DNA of 64,000 bases from Balaenoptera acutorostrata (Eukaryota > Chordata > Mammalia > Artiodactyla > Balaenopteridae), in contig NC_080067.1 of assembly GCF_949987535.1 (NCBI RefSeq), positions 63,298,405-63,362,404 on the forward strand. The letters run 5' to 3'. Under the pieces are notes generated by a model. That model saw only the letters and a list, made by a program, of their open reading frames with translations, made no database searches and had not been told where the DNA came from. Positions 26,996-64,000 of this stretch are shown here, piece after piece (position 1 is the stretch's first letter; every line of letters starts with the position of its first letter). A program made the position numbers and the translations under genes.

Positions 26996-28105
26996 TTCCT
27001 CTTATCAACTACACAGTTTGTTAAAGTATCCTGGGCTTCAGTAACTGGTCAATATCTCAGTGGTTTTACCTCCAACAGAGAGAATTTCTGCCATTTGTGG
27101 CTTGCCATTTGTTTGCTAGTGGTGAACTAAGAACATCTTTGATTTTCTGTTCCATGTTTCTATTCTAAGACCCTTATAATTAACACCGTTGGGAGCATAA
27201 TGTCATTGCACCCAGTGCTATGTAGTGCCAGCAAGCAGCCCAGACACAGCCATCAGCCTTCATGGTGTGTTGGCTCATTATCCAGATACAAGGATGCAAA
27301 CCTACTATAGTTGCATTCAAAAGGCTAAATTAAAGGGCAATGGCTTTCAATTGTAGAATGAATAATAAGCCAAACTTGTTCAATCTGTTTTTTATTTGCT
27401 AGCAGCCGAGATTTGAAATATTACTCTCAGGTCTCTGCATTGCTTTCTTTTGCTTATAAGATTAATAACAGATAAAGCTAAGTTGAACTAAACTGGGGTA
27501 TGACTGAGCTCTGAATTCCCAGATCTTTCTAACCCTTTTCCCAGTTGATCAGAGTTTCCAGGGATGGATGGGACATGTAAGTTTTCATAACTGCTTTCAT
27601 TTGGTATTATAATCCTTTTCATTTATATCAATCAGAATTCTGAACTCTCTAATCTTGTTTGCTATTTCACAAGTCTGTGTTTTTTAAAAAAAAATAGTGG
27701 TGAAAGTCTTCTATGCAGCTATCTTAGATATAAGAAAGAGGTAACTTTTTATAAAAATAACTAGATGTCACCCTCTCCCTTCTCTCACTCATGCCTGATG
27801 TTAAACAGTTTAGGTGTAAAACATGTCACAGATACAAAATATAAATTCTGAATATATATGGCATGGTATTCTTTTGTCTTTGTAATGGTTATTGCCCCAA
27901 AGTAGTAAACAAAAGGAGCTTTAAGGAGCTGGTAGGAGGTTATAAAGCTTACTTTGTGACTCTAAGCCCAACTCCCGCCTCCAGCCTGTAGATGAGATGA
28001 GGATTGTTGGAGGTGAGAGTCACTTTTGGAAATGGTTATTGGGGAGCTATGCTTTGAAATCTTCCCATCCCACCCCCACCTTAAGTGAGATAAGAGCTGT
28101 AAGAG
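26996..28105. other. Single-copy stretch, nothing recognised
   Basis: No gene or confident repeat. Confidence 0.45.
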
Positions 28106-28223
28106 GGAATTCCCTGATGGTCCAGTGGTTAGGACTCGGCACTTTCACTGCCAAGGGCCTGGGTTCCATCCTTGGTTGGGAAACTAAGATCCAGCAAGCC
28201 TCCCCCCCAAAAAAAAAAAAAAA
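28106..28223 (+). mobile_element. Short CHR-type SINE
   Basis: Runs from ggaattccctgatggtcc to an A tail at about 28208-28223. The flanks ctgtaagag and ctctaagag resemble a target duplication with one change. The 97- and 69-codon frames here are SINE translations. Confidence 0.92.
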
Positions 28224-29114
28224 AACTCTAAGAGAACATCTCAGAGAACTTGCCATGGGTCTTCAGGTGTCTGGAGGACCCCAAAACTGACTTGCACCTG
28301 GAAGTCTAAAGACAAGGGCTCGCTAGAGCTGCCGCTGATGACAGAGTGAGGAGTGAGGGCTGTAGTGGGAAGAGCCAGCACTTTCAGAATTTGGAGGAGC
28401 AAAAATATGAGCATTTCCAGTGAACCAGACTGGACATCACAGTAGGTGGTCAGCATGAGTGTCTTAAAGCATCTTCATTCTAGAGGTCTGTCTACCTGAC
28501 AAGATGGCCCTGAGAGGAAGAGTGGTCCTGGGGTGTAAAGCAAGAAGCAAGAGCTATGGGAATAGTGGTGGGGTCAACTGGAAGATGCTTGCCCACATCA
28601 GGGAACAGTGCAGTGGGGACCTCTAGCAAGGAGTCTTTAAACAACCCACAAAACATCCCATAAGAGAAAGAACCAGAAGCTCTGCATCTGTTAGACAGAG
28701 GGCCTAAACCAATGTGGCACCAGTGAAGCAAAATGATTAGGGGAAGAGGTAGAACAAGTAGAGAAAAACAGACTCACTGCAAGTGTCCAAACCTAGGTCT
28801 GATTAAGAGCTGTGGAAGAGAGAAGTGTTAACTGAATGAGGGATTAAAGTTTTTATTTTGATCAAATTGAACTTTTTAAGTCATCAAGACAAGACTGTGT
28901 GATCAAAACCTCAAAGGTGTAAGAAAATCTTTCAGATCTGCCCAAGATAACGTCCATAGTTGGGGAAGGGGATGCCGCTCAGTCATATTTGAAAGACAGT
29001 AAGAAAAATAAAGCTATTTAATAATTTTTCCCACAAAATCCACCTAGTTCATAAAGATGATGCATAAAGAATAAGCAAAACACATGTATCCATAGGAATT
29101 TAGAACTGAGGTGG
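28224..29114. other. Non-coding stretch, nothing recognised
   Basis: Somewhat GC-richer sequence with several overlapping short frames on the minus strand and no family resemblance. Confidence 0.4.
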
Positions 29115-37860: not shown

Positions 37861-37995
37861 GGAATTCCCTGGCAGTCCAGTGGTTAGGACTCTGCACTTC
37901 TACTGCAGGGGGCAAGGATTCGATCCCTGGTTGGTGAATTAACATCCCACATGCTGCACAGTGCGGCCAAAAACAAAAACAAAAACAAAAATAAC
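37861..37995 (+). mobile_element. Short CHR-type SINE at the head of a composite insertion
   Basis: Runs from ggaattccctggcagtcc to gcggcc and a CAAAAA-repeat tail. The left flank aaagaactgactttag (37845-37860) has no partner directly after the tail. Its partner, with one change, is at 38313-38328, beyond about 315 further bases. Confidence 0.93.
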
Positions 37996-48930: not shown

Positions 48931-49058
48931 AGTTTTTTTTTTTTGGCTGCACCACATGTCTTGTGGGATGTGGGATCTTAGTTCCCCGACCAGGGATTGA
49001 ACCTGGGCCCTTGGCAGTGAGAGCTCCGCGTCCTAACCACTGGACTGCCAGGGAATTC
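48931..49058 (-). mobile_element. Short CHR-type SINE, reverse
   Basis: The + strand shows ggctgcaccacatgtcttgt, ccagggattgaacctggg and gccagggaattcc. The flanks ctggacacaagtt and ctggacactagtt form a 13-bp duplication with one change. Confidence 0.94.
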
Positions 49059-57097: not shown

Positions 57098-57171
57098 GGA
57101 CAGAATAATGGTCCCCCCAAAATGTCCACGTTCTAATCCCTGGACCCTGGGCATGCAAAAGAGACTTAGCA
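57098..57171 (+). repeat. Old LTR-like repeat, left part (target of the L1)
   Basis: gacagaataatggtcccccc and ttctaatccctggaccctgg belong to a common old LTR-type repeat. The last 15 bases (57157-57171, aaaagagacttagca) are the target-site duplication. The element resumes at 63954 with the same 15 bases and continues gatgtgattaaggttaggac, as expected from the family. Confidence 0.8.
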
Positions 57172-57266
57172 AGCCTCAACCACCAGAGGGCAGACAACAG
57201 AAGCAAGAAAAACTACAATCCTGCAGCCTGTGGTCCAAAAACCACAGTTACAGAAAGACAGAGAAG

Positions 57267-58172
57267 ATGAAAAGGCAGAGGGCTATGTACCAGATGAAGG
57301 AACAAGAAAAAACCCCAGAAAAACAACTAAATGAAGTGGAGATAGGCAACCTTCCAGAAAAAGAATTCAGAATAATGATAGTGAAGATGATCCAGGACCT
57401 CGGAATAAGAATGGAGGCAAAGATTGAGAAGATGCAAGAAATGATTAACAAAGACCTAGAAGAATTAAAGAACAAACAAACAGAGATGAACAATACAATG
57501 ACTGAAATGAAAACTACACTAGAAGGAATCAATAGCAGAATAACTGAGGCAGAAGAACGGATAAGTGACCTGGAAGACAGAATGGTGGAATTCACTGCTG
57601 CAGAACAGACTAAAGAAAAAAGAATGAAAAGAAATGAAGACAGCCTAAGAGACCTCTGGGACAACATTAAACGCAACAACATTCGCATTATAGGGGTCCC
57701 AGAAGGAGAAGAGAGAGAGAAAGGACCAGAGAAAATATTTGAAGAGATTATAGTCGAAAACTTCCCTAACATGGGAAAGGAAATAGCCACCCAAGTCCAG
57801 GAAGCGCAGAGAGTCCCATACAGAATAAACCCAAGGAGAAACACGCCGAGACACATAGTAATCAAAGTGGCAAAAATTAAAAACAAAGAAAAATTACTGA
57901 AAGCAGCAAGGGAAAAACGACAAATAACATACAAGGGAACTCCCATAAGGTTAACAGCTGATTTCTCAGCAGAAACTCTGCAAGCCAGAAGGGAGTGGCA
58001 TGATATACTTAAAGTGATGAAAGGGAAGAACCTACAACCAAGATTACTCTACCCGGCAAGGATCTCATTCAGATTCGATGGAGAAATCAAAAGCTTTACA
58101 GACAAGCAAAAGCTAAGAGAATTCAGCACCACCAAACCAGCTCTACAACAAATGCTAAAGGAACTTCTCTAA
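57267..58172 (+). CDS. L1 ORF1 protein, intact (301 aa)
   Basis: ORF1p is the RNA-binding chaperone that coats L1 RNA as a trimer in the retrotransposition particle. The start at 57267 ([10 protein letters not shown]) matches the usual position at the end of the 5' UTR. The same frame is also open upstream to an ATG at 57108 in the target repeat, which I regard as accidental. The protein shows a charged N-terminus, a heptad-rich coiled coil at about residues 45-125 ([19 protein letters not shown]), an RRM-like domain from about 135 ([11 protein letters not shown]) to 230, and a C-terminal domain at about 235-300 with [13 protein letters not shown] and [13 protein letters not shown]. The frame is unbroken, which fits a recent insertion. 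ORF2 starts 58 bases downstream. Expression is doubtful because the L1 promoter is truncated. Confidence 0.95.
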
Positions 58173-58230
58173 GTGGGAAACACAAGAGAAGAAAAGGACC
58201 TACAAAAACAAACCCAAAACAATTAAGAAA

Positions 58231-61200
58231 ATGGTCATAGGAACATACATATCGATAATTACCTTAAATGTGAATGGATTAAATGCCCCAACCAAAAGAC
58301 ATAGACTGGCTGAATGGATACAAAAACAAGACCCATATATATGCTGTCTACAAGAGACCCACTTCAGACCTAGGGACACATACAGACTGAAAGTGAGGGG
58401 ATGGAAAAAGATATTCCATGCAAATGGAAATCAAAAGAAAGCTGGAGTAGCTATACTCATATCAGATAAAATAGACTTTAAAATAAAGAATGTTACAAGA
58501 GACAAGGAAGGACACTACATAATGATCCAGGGATCAATCCAAGAAGAAGATATAACAATTATAAATATATATGCACCCAACATAGGAGCACCTCAATACA
58601 TAAGGCAACTGCTAACAGCTATAAAAGAGGAAATCGACAGTAACACAATCATAGTGGGGGACTTTAACACCTCACTTACACCAATGGACAGATCATCCAA
58701 AATGAAAATAAATAAGGAAACACAAGCTTTAAATGACACAATAGACCAGATAGATTTAATTGATATATATAGGACATTCCATCCAAAAACGGCAGATTAC
58801 ACGTTCTTCTCAAGTGCGCACGGAACATTCTCCAGGATAGATCACATCTTGGGTCACAAATCAAGCCTCAGTAAATTTAAGAAAATTGAAATCATATCAA
58901 GCATCTTTTCTGACCACAACGCTATGAGATTAGAAATGAATTACAGGGAAAAAAACGTAAAAAAGACAAACACATGGAGACTAAACAATACGTTACTAAA
59001 TAACCAAGAGATCACTGAAGAAATCAAACAGGAAATAAAAAAATACCTAGAGACAAATGACAATGAAAACACGACGACCCAAAACCTATGGGATGCAGCA
59101 AAAGCGGTTCTAAGAGGGAAGTTTATAGCTATACAAGCCTACCTAAAGAAACAAGAAAAATCTCAAGTAAACAATCTAACCTTACACCTAAAGAAACTAG
59201 AGAAAGAAGAACAAACAAAACCCAAAGTTAGCAGAAGGAAAGAAATCATAAAGATCAGAGCAGAAATAAATGAAATAGAAACAAAGAAAACAATAGCAAA
59301 GATCAATAAAACTAAAAGTTGGTTCTTTGAGAAGATAAACAAAATTGATAAGCCATTAGCCAGACTCATCAAGAAAAAGAGGGAGAGGACTCAAATCAAT
59401 AAAATCAGAAACGAAAAAGGAGAAGTTACAACAGACACCGCAGAAATACAAAACATCCTAAGAGACTACTACAAGCAACTTTATGCCAATAAAATGGACA
59501 ACCTGGAAGAAATGGACAAATTCTTAGAAAGGTATAAACTTCCAAGACTGAATAAGGAAGAAACAGAAAATATCAACAGACCAATCACAAGTAATGAAAT
59601 TGAAACTGTGATTAAAAATCTTCCAACAAACAAAAGTCCAGGACCAGATGGCTTCACAGGTGAATTCTATCAAACATTTAGAGAAGAGCTAACACCCATC
59701 CTTCTCAAACTCTTCCAAAAAATTGCAGAAGAAGGAACACTCCCAAACTCATTCTATGAGGCCACCATCACCCTGATACCAAAACCAGACAAAGACACTA
59801 CAAAAAAAGAAAATTACAGACCAATATCACTGATGAATATAGATGCAAAAATCCTCAACAAAATACTAGCAAACAGAATCCAACAACACATTAAAAGGAT
59901 CATACACCACGATCAAGTGGGATTTATCCCAGGGATGCAAGGATTCTTCAATATACGCAAATCAATCAATGTGATACACCATATTAACAAATTGAAGAAT
60001 AAAAACCATATGATCATCTCAATAGATGCAGAAAAAGCTTTTGACAAAATTCAACACCCATTTATGATAAAAACTCTCCAGAAAGTGGGCATAGAGGGAA
60101 CCTACCTCAACATAATAAAGGCCATATATGACAAACCCACAGCAAACATCATTCTCAATGGTGAAAAACTGAAAGCATTTCCTCTAAGATCAGGAACGAG
60201 ACAAGGATGTCCACTCTCACCACTATTATTCAACATAGTTCTGGAAGTCCTAGCCACGGCAATCAGAGAAGAAAAAGAAATAAAAGGAATACAAATTGGA
60301 AAAGAAGAAGTAAAACTGTCACTGTTTGCGGATGACATGATACTATACATAGAGAATCCTAAAACTGCCACCAGAAAACTGCTAGAGCTAATTAATGAAT
60401 ATGGTAAAGTTGCAGGTTACAAAATTAATGCACAGAAATCTCTTGCATTCCTATACACTAATGATGAAAAATCTGAAAGAGAAATTATGGAAACACTCCC
60501 ATTTACCATTGCAACAAAAAAAATAAAATACCTAGGAATAAACCTACCTAGGGAGACAAAAGACCTGTATGCAGAAAACTATAAGACACTGATGAAAGAA
60601 ATTAAAGATGATACAAATAGATGGAGAGATATACCATGTTCTTGGATTGGAAGAATCAACATTGTGAAAATGAGTATACTACCCAAAGCAATCTACAGAT
60701 TCAATGCAATCCCTATCAAATTACCAATGGCATTTTTTACGGAGCTAGAACAAATCATCTTAAAATTTGTATGGAGACACAAAAGACCCCGAATAGCCAA
60801 AGCAGTCTTGAGGCAAAAAAATGGAGCTGGAGGAATCAGACTCCCTGACTTCAGACTATACTACAAAGCTACAGTAATCAAGACAATATGGTACTGGCAC
60901 AAAAACAGAAACATAGATCAATGGAACAAGATAGAAAGCCCAGAGATTAACCCACGCACCTATGGTCAACTAATCTATGACAAAGGAGGCAAAGATATAC
61001 AATGGAGAAAAGACAGTCTCTTCAATAAGTGGTGCTGGGAAAACTGGACAGCTACATGTAAAAGAATGAAATTAGAATACTCCCTAACACCATACACAAA
61101 AATAAACTCAAAATGGATTAGAGACCTAAATATAAGACTGGACACTATAAAACTCTTAGAGGAAAACATAGGAAGAACACTCTTTGACATAAATCACAGC

Positions 61201-61890
61201 AAGATCTTTTTTGATCCACCTCCTAGAGTAATGGAAATAAAAACAAAAATAAACAAGTGGGACCTAATGAAACTACAAAGCTTTTGCACAGCAAAGGAAA
61301 CCATAAACAAGACAAAAAGACAACCCTCAGAATGGGAGAAAATATTTGCAAATGAATCAACTGACAAAGGATTAATCTCCAAAATATATAAACAGCTCAT
61401 TCAGCTCAATATCAAAGAAACAAACACCCCAATCCAAAAATGGGCAGAAGACCTAAATAGACATTTCTCCAAAGAAGACATACAGACGGCCACGAAGCAC
61501 ATGAAAAGATGCTCAACATCACTAATTATTAGAGAAATGCAAATCAAAACTACAATGAGGTATCACCTCACTCCTGTTAGAATGGGCATCATCAGAAAAT
61601 CTACAAACAACAAATGCTGGAGAGGGTGTGGAGAAAAGGGAACCCTCTTGCACTGTTGGTGGGAATGTAAATTGATACAGCCACTATGGAGAACAATATG
61701 GAGGTTCCTTAAAAAACTAAAAATAGAATTACCATATGACCCAGCAATCCCACTACTGGGCATATACCCAGAGAAAACCATAATTCAAAAGGACACATGC
61801 ACCCGAATGTTCATTGCAGCACTATTTACAATAGCCAGGTCATGGAAGCAACCTAAATGCCCATCAACAGACGAATGGATAAAGAAGTAG
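58231..61890 (+). CDS. L1 ORF2 protein, open for 1219 aa, C-terminus cut by one TAG
   Basis: ORF2p supplies endonuclease and reverse transcriptase for target-primed reverse transcription. The endonuclease domain covers about residues 1-238, with visible active-site residues N13, E42 (LQETHF), D144 and N146 (VGDFN) and H229 (SDHNA). The RT domain follows: [41 protein letters not shown], and the catalytic FADD at residues 699-702. The C-terminal cysteine-rich segment starts near residue 1129 ([18 protein letters not shown]). The frame stops at TAG 61888-61890. L1-like coding continues in the same frame to TAG 62047-62049, so about 53 codons are lost. The older L1 at 11461 has TTG at the equivalent site, so a single T-to-A change is the simplest cause. 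Whether this stop is private to the copy or family-wide is not visible here. Confidence 0.95.
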
Positions 61891-62049
61891 TGGTACATAT
61901 ATACAATGGAATATTACTCAGCCATAAAAAGGAACGAAATTGAGTCATTTGTTGAGACGTGGATGGATCTAGAGACTGTCATACAGAGTGAAGTAAGTCA
62001 GAAAGAGAAAAACAAATATCGTATATTAATGCATGTATGTGGAACCTAG
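61891..62049 (+). pseudogene. Remnant of the ORF2 C-terminus after the premature stop
   Basis: In frame with ORF2, the translation continues WYIYTMEYYSAIKRNE and ends HVCGT, the expected L1 ORF2 end. It contains no further disruption, so the upstream TAG is the only lesion in ORF2. Confidence 0.88.
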
Positions 62050-62280
62050 AAAAATGGTACAGATGAGCCAGTTTGCAGGGCAGAAGTTGAGACACAGATG
62101 TAGAGAATGGACATATGGACACCAAGGGGGGAAAACTGAGGTGAGGTGGGGATGGTGGTGTGCTGAATTGGGCGATTGGGATTGACATGTATACACTGAT
62201 GTGTATAAAACTGATGCCTAATAAGAACCTGCAGTATAAAAAAACAAACAAAACAACTAATACTAAACTTTCATTGGGTT

Positions 62281-62514
62281 ATTTGTATGGAAATATGTTA
62301 ATATAAATGTTTCAGACATTACATGAAATTTCTAAAAATGTTATATTTGTATTTGTATGGAAATATGTATGGAAATATGTTAATATAAATGTTTCAGACA
62401 TTACATGAAATTTCTAAAAATCTTATATTTGTATTTGTATGGAAATATGTATGGAAATATGTTAATATAAATGTTTCAGACATTACAGGAAACTTCTAAA
62501 AATCTTATATGTTC
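62281..62514 (+). repeat. 82-bp tandem repeat, three copies
   Basis: Copies at 62281-62350 (70 bp), 62351-62432 (82 bp) and 62433-62514 (82 bp). Each runs from atttgtatggaaatatg to ttatatttgt or its variant. The second and third copies have an extra 12 bases (tatggaaatatg doubled), so the array also grew internally. No coding meaning. Confidence 0.96.
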
Positions 62515-63197
62515 TGGTATAAGGTTATAAGTAATAATCCTAGTTATTACTTTAAAATGTATATCTCAGAAATAACTAATTTTCTTGTCAACTGCATTAT
62601 TATGAACTTTCATCAAATCTTTAACCATGGTCATTTTTAAGTCTTCTGTCATTTACAGACAGTTCTGGGTGTACTCTGATGATTTTGCAAGTATGTTCCT
62701 ATAAAAGGGTTTCATCTTCAAGAAATTCATGGAAAAGACTCTGACAAGTACAGGTTTCTGGTAACTGACTGTACTGCTGAACTGAATGAATAAGCATTTT
62801 CAGAACTCTAATGAAAAACTGATGAACTCATAAAAGTGCTAACAAAAGATCAAGATGAAAAAAAAAATTAATTACATGGGACTGAGTGAACTGATGAGGA
62901 TGAGTATAATTTTTGTGACTTTCTGTCTGAATTAAAAAAAAAAAAATCCCACAAGGACTCAGAGGCAAAGAATATACAAATCAATTTTCACTGCAAAGTA
63001 AAGGAGCTGTTACAGTGGAGGATTACTGGACTGAATGTCAATATTATGACATAGTATGAGTGTGTTTCATGTTTGGTAATTGCAATCATTGTTGCTTTTG
63101 TTGTGGTCATCCATGTACAATGCTTGGTGTCAGTCTATTTATCTCTTGTAAAAATAAAATACAGTGTGTGTCTGTGGGAAAAAAAAAAAAAAAAAAA
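62515..63197 (+). pseudogene. mRNA-like 3' end, parent unidentified
   Basis: Ends with AATAAA at 63153-63158, about 20 bases before an A tract at 63179-63197, the layout of a polyadenylated mRNA 3' end or processed pseudogene. The interior has no long open frame. I do not recognise the parent gene. It may be an older retrocopy that lay downstream of the source L1, or 3' flank polyadenylated at this signal. Confidence 0.5.
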
Positions 63198-63937
63198 GAA
63201 TAGTGACTTAACTTGAAAGCATTCATATCCAGGGGCCTAGGTGCTACTGGGTAAAAAGCACCCACCCTAAAAAAAAAAAAAAAAAAAAAAAAAAGAAAAG
63301 TCAATTTTAGCTATCCTATTAATTACACAAGGCTTCAAATGATGCAAAGAACTCACTTTTCTCCTGGGCTACCTCATTATCGTCAGATTTCAGTTCAATA
63401 CAATACCAGCTTACAAATATGTTGATTTGGTTTTGAAATTACATTGCCTCCCATCAAAAATAGTACACTTTTCAATAACAATCATGTCAACATAAAAAGT
63501 ATTAACTTTTAATGATTAGCTTGGGATCTGAACACCCTGCCTTTGGAATATTTAGCCATTAAGCATTTAAACAACACATTATCTGAATGAGCCAATGTAA
63601 GCATGTTTAATTTCCTTTTTTTTTTTTTTAGAACTTTTAAAGGTTTCATACACTGCTACCCAGAAAATCACAATTGATCATTATGCCTGTTAATGTCATG
63701 TAGTTTGAACTATCCTATAGTAAATCATTAAGATAATCACTAGAATGTACATTTCATGAGAACAGGGATTTCTATCTATTTTGTTTACTGTATTCCTCAG
63801 CATCTATTTCTGACATATGATCAGCACGTAACACGTGTGTTAAACACTTGCAAACTCATATTTTGTTTTATCTTATTCTGATCGCCATACTATTCCAAAT
63901 TTATGTGTCACCTCTTCTTCCTATTGCTTCATGTTAT

Positions 63938-63957
63938 TTAAAAAAAAAAAAAAAAAA
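63938..63957 (+). other. Terminal poly(A) of the L1 insertion
   Basis: An A run that merges with the four A bases starting the right target-site duplication (63954-63968). Confidence 0.85.
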
Positions 63958-64000
63958 GAGACTTAGCAGATGTGATTAAGGTTAGGACCTTGATACTGGG
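63954..64000 (+). repeat. Old LTR-like repeat, right part (target of the L1)
   Basis: Starts with the 15-base duplication aaaagagacttagca and continues gatgtgattaaggttaggac to the window end. It is the continuation of the element interrupted at 57171. Confidence 0.8.

Follow-up and report, generated by a model that had tools for sequence, protein, structure and literature searches.

A young L1 3′ transduction in Balaenoptera acutorostrata joins a private flank to an inherited, probably captured 3′ end

A LINE-1 (L1) retrotransposon of the whale Balaenoptera acutorostrata, inserted at 57157–63968 of a 64,000-nucleotide stretch of contig C5 (C5:63298405–63362404, NC_080067.1; hereafter the window), is followed by about 1.7 kb of sequence that lies beyond its open reading frames (ORFs) and 3′ untranslated region (UTR), and that closes with a run of 18 adenines (A18). 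Where does this extra sequence come from, and was it acquired in one step? A sequence-only reading of the locus had proposed that a young L1 carried along 1.68 kb of downstream DNA. The element is a real, young, partnered L1 3′ transduction; however, only 742 base pairs of the cargo are private, and the first 0.92 kb, called here segment X, is the inherited 3′ end of the L1 family. There is a strong case for a two-step history, in which X would have been captured long ago and the 742 base pairs would have been transduced later from contig C18 into C5. Genome searches covered the 2.77-Gb assembly to which the window belongs.

Boundaries and composition of the insertion

The insertion is flanked by an exact 15-base pair target-site duplication (57157–57171 and 63954–63968, forward strand, as are all features of the insertion), which had been described correctly from the sequence. 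The 15-mer occurs just twice in the window, with an expected count of 0 from 100 shuffles of the window, and the match is exactly 15 bases without extension on either side. The interval ends, also as proposed, in poly(A), the A18 at 63940–63957, whose last four adenines overlap the right duplication. The predicted empty site on C5 would hold a single copy of the 15-mer joined to GATGTGATTAAGG. Candidate endonuclease target sites of L1 type, TTTT/GC at C5 and TCTT/AT or near it at C18, can be read off the sequences. The old repeat split by the insertion has no other convincing copy in the window, its correct reading across the join was judged only by eye, and a search with one exact pattern from it gave 0 matches in viral contigs.

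The sequence between the L1 and the final A18 consists of two parts with different distributions in the genome. A search of the whole assembly with 62264–63937 returned its own place at full length, 39 other places over approximately the first 930 bases with 99–100% identity, and one 41-base piece. This count is a lower bound, with 40 of the 492 candidates scored. Because X (62258–63178) recurs at 39 other places with the match ending at its poly(A), it is not fresh cargo; it is a 3′ end that members of a young L1 family have in common. Segment X contains AATAAA at 63153–63158 and is followed by A19 (63179–63197), which would be the poly(A) of the source L1-X insertion.

The private part of the cargo (63198–63939, 742 base pairs), searched alone, gave 12 candidates, all of which were scored. 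The sole other full-length match is at C18:88219074–88219805 on the minus strand, with 98% identity. The partial matches are one on C15 over the last 57 bases and nine of 38–72 bases with 82–92% identity, all in one part of the cargo, which we take to be an old repeat, presumably L2-like. Apart from the window, the cargo is thus a single-copy flank with C18 as its only full-length place, the property by which a transduction is recognized. Aligned over 732 bases, the window and C18 show two substitutions, along with ten gap columns. Past the end of the cargo, C18 continues as GAATACTAAGCAGG without an A-run where the final A18 of the window starts; therefore, this A18 is untemplated and was added to the RNA. 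The A26 run within the cargo (63269–63294) corresponds to an A18 at C18. Since it is already part of the C18 flank, it does not mark a separate insertion boundary, and a reading of the three A-runs as three serial events is ruled out.

The L1-X family and the origin of its 3′ end

Twenty of the 39 other places with X were fetched with flanks (L009–L028); they are among the best-scoring copies and form a biased sample. The L1 runs unbroken into X in all 20 loci, or 19 without the duplicate L023, the exact 41-base L1–X junction is present in 17, and an A-run of at least ten follows X in every one. L015 (C1:161.53M) and L023 (unplaced C115) represent one insertion that the assembly contains twice, once on a placed contig and once on an unplaced one, which leaves 19 independent loci; such duplicate haplotigs can inflate copy counts. 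In ten of the 19, the 14–19 bases that follow the poly(A) are found again next to the 5′ end of the L1 (L009, L010, L012, L015, L016, L018, L021, L025, L027, and L028). A simple search gave no clear duplication pair in the remaining nine, where some matches are short and A-rich and two loci lie inside older L1s. Independent insertions thus share one 3′ sequence with the L1 upstream of it, as members of a transduction family do. No clear progenitor, with X running into unmobilized flank, was seen among the first places listed of 195 raw matches.

Other copies of the family also carry flanking sequence beyond X. L064 and L065 have 46 bases in common after the poly(A) of X, and the sequence continues in the fetched stretch of L064 and ends in a long A-run in L065; in a comparison of about 100–120 bases of X, with the L1 not included, the two loci are likely a source and its offspring. 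A common flank, closed by an A-run at both loci, is likewise present in L048 and L052, and L014 and L024 have a short one in common. The three pairs were not sampled randomly and give no transduction rate. L046 is another likely 3′ transduction within the family. At L059 (C2:84.36M), L061 (C6:63.96M), and L062 (C14:92.64M), X ends in 7–16 guanines followed by two to three adenines, with no poly(A) tail; the flanks of the three loci are all different, and similar G-run ends occur at further places with X.

Measured from the first bases of the 5′ UTR to a point shortly before X ends, the length is 6861–6869 bases in seven copies, 6450 in L009, which has a deletion, and 7215 in L015 and its duplicate L023, which have an insertion. 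Fifteen of the 20 copies were chosen for measuring divergence, and 14 were used after L013, which lacks a landmark, had been dropped. These 14 copies differ from the window by 0.20–0.71%, and the mean over all 105 pairs, the window included, is 0.46%. By a plain test, ORF2 has 1272 codons in five of the copies, 1271 in one, and fewer in seven; L025 was left out of this scoring because of a mismatch at the start landmark.

The L1 in the window had been described as near-intact; instead, it is 5′-truncated. It starts with the final 95 bases of the 5′ UTR (57172–57266, by comparison with the full-length relative L010), and L010 extends approximately 870 bases further 5′. ORF1 (57267–58172, 301 residues) has all three L1 ORF1 domains (PF02994, PF17489, and PF17490). 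ORF2 (58231–61890), with endonuclease and reverse transcriptase domains identified by Pfam, stops after 1219 codons and is followed by 52 more in-frame codons. The stop is private to the window copy, as it is found in none of the 14 aligned relatives; six of seven protein relatives of ORF2 read past its position, and a pig fragment ends there. Among the best 120 of 6992 matches to ORF1, the closest is P0121 (99%), the named sequences near the top are mostly from cetaceans (Phocoena sinus 84%, Pseudorca crassidens 80%, and Globicephala melas 79%), and Balaenoptera musculus matches with 88% over 88% of the protein. Among the best 120 of 215 matches to ORF2 residues 700–1219, the top-scoring one is from pig (77%). 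The mammal-like L1 proteins P0133 and P0042 are filed under a Delftia metagenome-assembled genome and Trypanosoma congolense, and probably reflect host DNA in those records. An Rfam match to mir-562 inside ORF2 was disregarded as far below the curated score.

The possibility that X is a processed mRNA or a pseudogene was rejected. When nine ORFs and pieces were compared with Pfam, the non-L1 pieces gave one sub-threshold match (E 0.077); the six frames of X matched nothing, and the only matches to solved structures had E values of 0.21 or weaker.

Three older loci, L066–L068, which were chosen for their odd-looking X ends, have L1s that are 91–95% and X segments that are 93–96% identical to those of the window. 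To judge from these comparisons, X is older than the burst of young L1-X copies, because more divergent loci carry it as well. An 82-base pair unit within X (62281–62526, approximately 2.8 copies in the window) is present three times in all 20 young copies fetched and once in L066–L068, a tandem expansion inside an L1 3′ end. An A-rich tract (62238–62257 in the window) separates X from the L1 3′ UTR (62050–62237) in the young copies, in L066, and in L067. Read as the fossil poly(A) of an ancestral L1, the tract suggests that X is an ancient 3′ transduction that became the 3′ end of the lineage. Ordinary artiodactyl L1s presumably end at this A-rich tract. It is also conceivable, although rather unlikely, that X was never captured and that these L1s simply have it as their ordinary ancestral 3′ UTR. 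The presence of X in all three older copies, with 93–96% identity, is in keeping with that alternative; the A-rich tract that divides X from the 3′ UTR in the young copies, in L066, and in L067 argues against it. A path of 5.6% at 1.54e-9 substitutions per site and year corresponds, very roughly, to the order of 18 million years. This rate is a setting used for the humpback whale, according to the available part of PMC6657726, in which LINE-1 and SINE (short interspersed element) subfamilies of humpback, bowhead, orca, and dolphin also show a spike at close to 5% divergence.

The source of the private cargo

The sequence-only reading had suggested aligning 62264–63937 to the genome, where a second copy next to a full-length L1 would be the source locus. 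A second copy of the cargo does exist at C18; however, it is not next to a full-length L1, and the place looks like an empty site. C18 is continuous from CCAAATAA directly into GAATAGTGACTT, with no insertion between them. The window L1 has no match in the 7.9 kb upstream of the cargo at C18, and an old L1 match of 65% (L042) lies on the other side of the cargo. From these sequences, C18 most likely represents the source locus in its empty state, and a source insertion that is not part of the reference would explain why it is empty.

A further copy of the C18 flank is located on C15 (L043). It comprises 508 bases, of which 506 are identical to C18 on the same strand, starts inside the cargo of the window, and runs approximately 450 bases past the window's end point. 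The copy ends in A25, with AATAAA 15 bases ahead of the tail and a duplication of 17–18 bases on both sides. It is an orphan copy of the C18 flank and probably a sibling of the window insertion, with which it may share its L1 source. Alternatively, an ordinary transcript of C18 could have given rise to it as a retrocopy.

Such a transcript is also central to the alternative that no L1 was ever present at C18, and that template switching or trans-splicing joined an L1-X RNA to an independent transcript of the C18 strand. This is improbable. The empty state of C18 in the assembly and the possible derivation of the C15 copy from an ordinary transcript would suit it; however, the join in the window reads A19 followed by the flank, just as a filled source locus would. 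In addition, placing a foreign RNA 3′ of an L1 needs a switch order opposite to that of the 5′-side chimeras described in the portion of PMC13174262 consulted, and the likely source and offspring pair L064 and L065 points to transduction elsewhere in the family.

It is considerably less probable that the cargo is one fresh transduction of 1.68 kb from a single source flank. The X segment and the private cargo are contiguous and both lie 3′ of the L1, as that would require, but X is present at the 39 other scored places with matches that end at its poly(A) and with different flanks in those read, and C18 contains the cargo without X or an L1. Stepwise nested insertions at C5, with the L1 arriving first and other pieces later, might be suspected from the three A-runs of at least 18 within 1.7 kb, compared with two in the other 57 kb of the window, but can practically be dismissed, as there is no internal duplication (the two inner post-run sequences match no better than shuffled ones, and the outer pair matches at 15 of 15 positions) and the cargo is contiguous at C18, including the middle A-run.

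The age of the window transduction can be estimated in two ways. Six substitutions private to the window over 57250–63166 (approximately 5,917 compared bases) amount to about 0.1%, or 0.7 million years at 1.54e-9, and the two differences from C18, distributed over two branches, give about 0.9 million years. The open reading frames make a divergence above 1% unlikely, at an assumed rate of 0.1 insertions or deletions per substitution. With two substitutions in the bases aligned to C18, the event is thus estimated to be close to one million years old.

The history favored here, an old capture of X followed by a C18 transduction, would have begun with an L1 whose transcription continued past its 3′ end into the neighboring DNA, as indicated by the A-rich tract and the shared junction. 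The flank X (approximately 0.92 kb), which contains a poly(A) signal, would have been copied along and kept from then on as the 3′ terminus of an L1 lineage whose amplification is recent. About one million years ago, an L1-X copy may have been located at C18:88.22 Mb, where the assembly holds the apparent empty allele. Its RNA would have passed the poly(A) of X, continued into 742 bases of C18 flank, and been polyadenylated there. As the anatomy of the insertion shows, reverse transcription by target priming into C5 followed, with 5′ truncation and the 15-base pair duplication. A second RNA of the C18 flank, ending further on after AATAAA, produced the 5′-truncated orphan on C15, as the anatomy of that copy shows.

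Several observations weigh against this history. In this assembly, C18 has no L1 directly upstream of the flank, and the final 40 bases of the cargo contain none of 14 hexamers tested as poly(A) signals, which are expected 10–35 bases before a new end. The A-rich tract was not located in the older copy L068, and neither was the genomic locus from which X originally came. A tree of 13 rows (the window and 12 copies, with L009 and L025 left out) has no supported fork.

Elsewhere in the window, Rfam tRNA matches at 48982–49054 (minus strand) and 37874–37928 (plus strand) are probably tRNA-derived SINEs, and a SINE-like copy with an A17 tail at approximately 28105–28225 resembles cetacean CHR elements.

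Known transductions and the meaning of the L1-X family

The mechanism of transduction is already known, and the size of the X family together with its repeated re-transduction is the part of interest here. The 3′ transductions, serial and orphan transductions, and sources missing from the reference have been described in human (parts of PMC4859970, PMC13009371, and PMC6425141). The human partnered cases, as presented in the sections of PMC4859970 and PMC13009371 consulted, have the same order of L1, internal poly(A), unique flank, terminal poly(A), and target duplication, and the serial events described there resemble the whale case. By contrast, the source insertion of the whale element is absent from the assembly, and its L1 already bears an older, probably captured end. 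The orphan transductions and missing sources in the available text of PMC13009371 resemble the C15 copy, which contains only source flank and has no source L1 in the assembly; unlike them, the whale case, with its putatively polymorphic source, is known from one assembly.

In 2019, a human transduction family of 14 members was said to be the largest discovered until then (PMC6425141, in part). It is similar to the X family in that many insertions are tagged by one transduced 3′ sequence and sublineages have transductions of their own; compared with its 14 members, X has 39 other copies among 40 scored of 492 candidates, with at least one duplicate contig. L1 lineages that recruit new 5′ UTRs, as described in the accessible part of PMC5872511, are likewise comparable, as there too a lineage expands after acquiring an untranslated end that it did not have before; X differs in being located at the 3′ end and in that its capture is inferred. 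Chimeras on the 5′ side of L1s have also been described (PMC13174262, in part). The portions of PMC10883270, PMC4862182, and PMC6340175 consulted held nothing decisive for this case. None of the literature titles listed dealt with L1 transductions in cetaceans or with a captured 3′ end that had founded an L1 lineage, in a search that had most subscription journals outside its range.

The 742-base pair cargo is a unique barcode that ties the window insertion and the orphan copy to one source locus without an L1 in the assembly, and the probable polymorphic source could be sought by genotyping C18. On balance, we favor the view that an L1 lineage captured a 3′ flank, has kept it as its permanent 3′ end for many million years, and has recently amplified to maybe hundreds of copies (492 first-look candidates), with leaky termination seeding further transductions. 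Such a lineage would mirror, at the 3′ end, the recruitment of 5′ UTRs, and no larger L1 transduction family may have been seen so far. If this is true, L1 lineages can gain new 3′ ends by transduction and then amplify. With its many tagged and very young insertions, the X family is also suited to tracing L1 activity and the history of whale populations.

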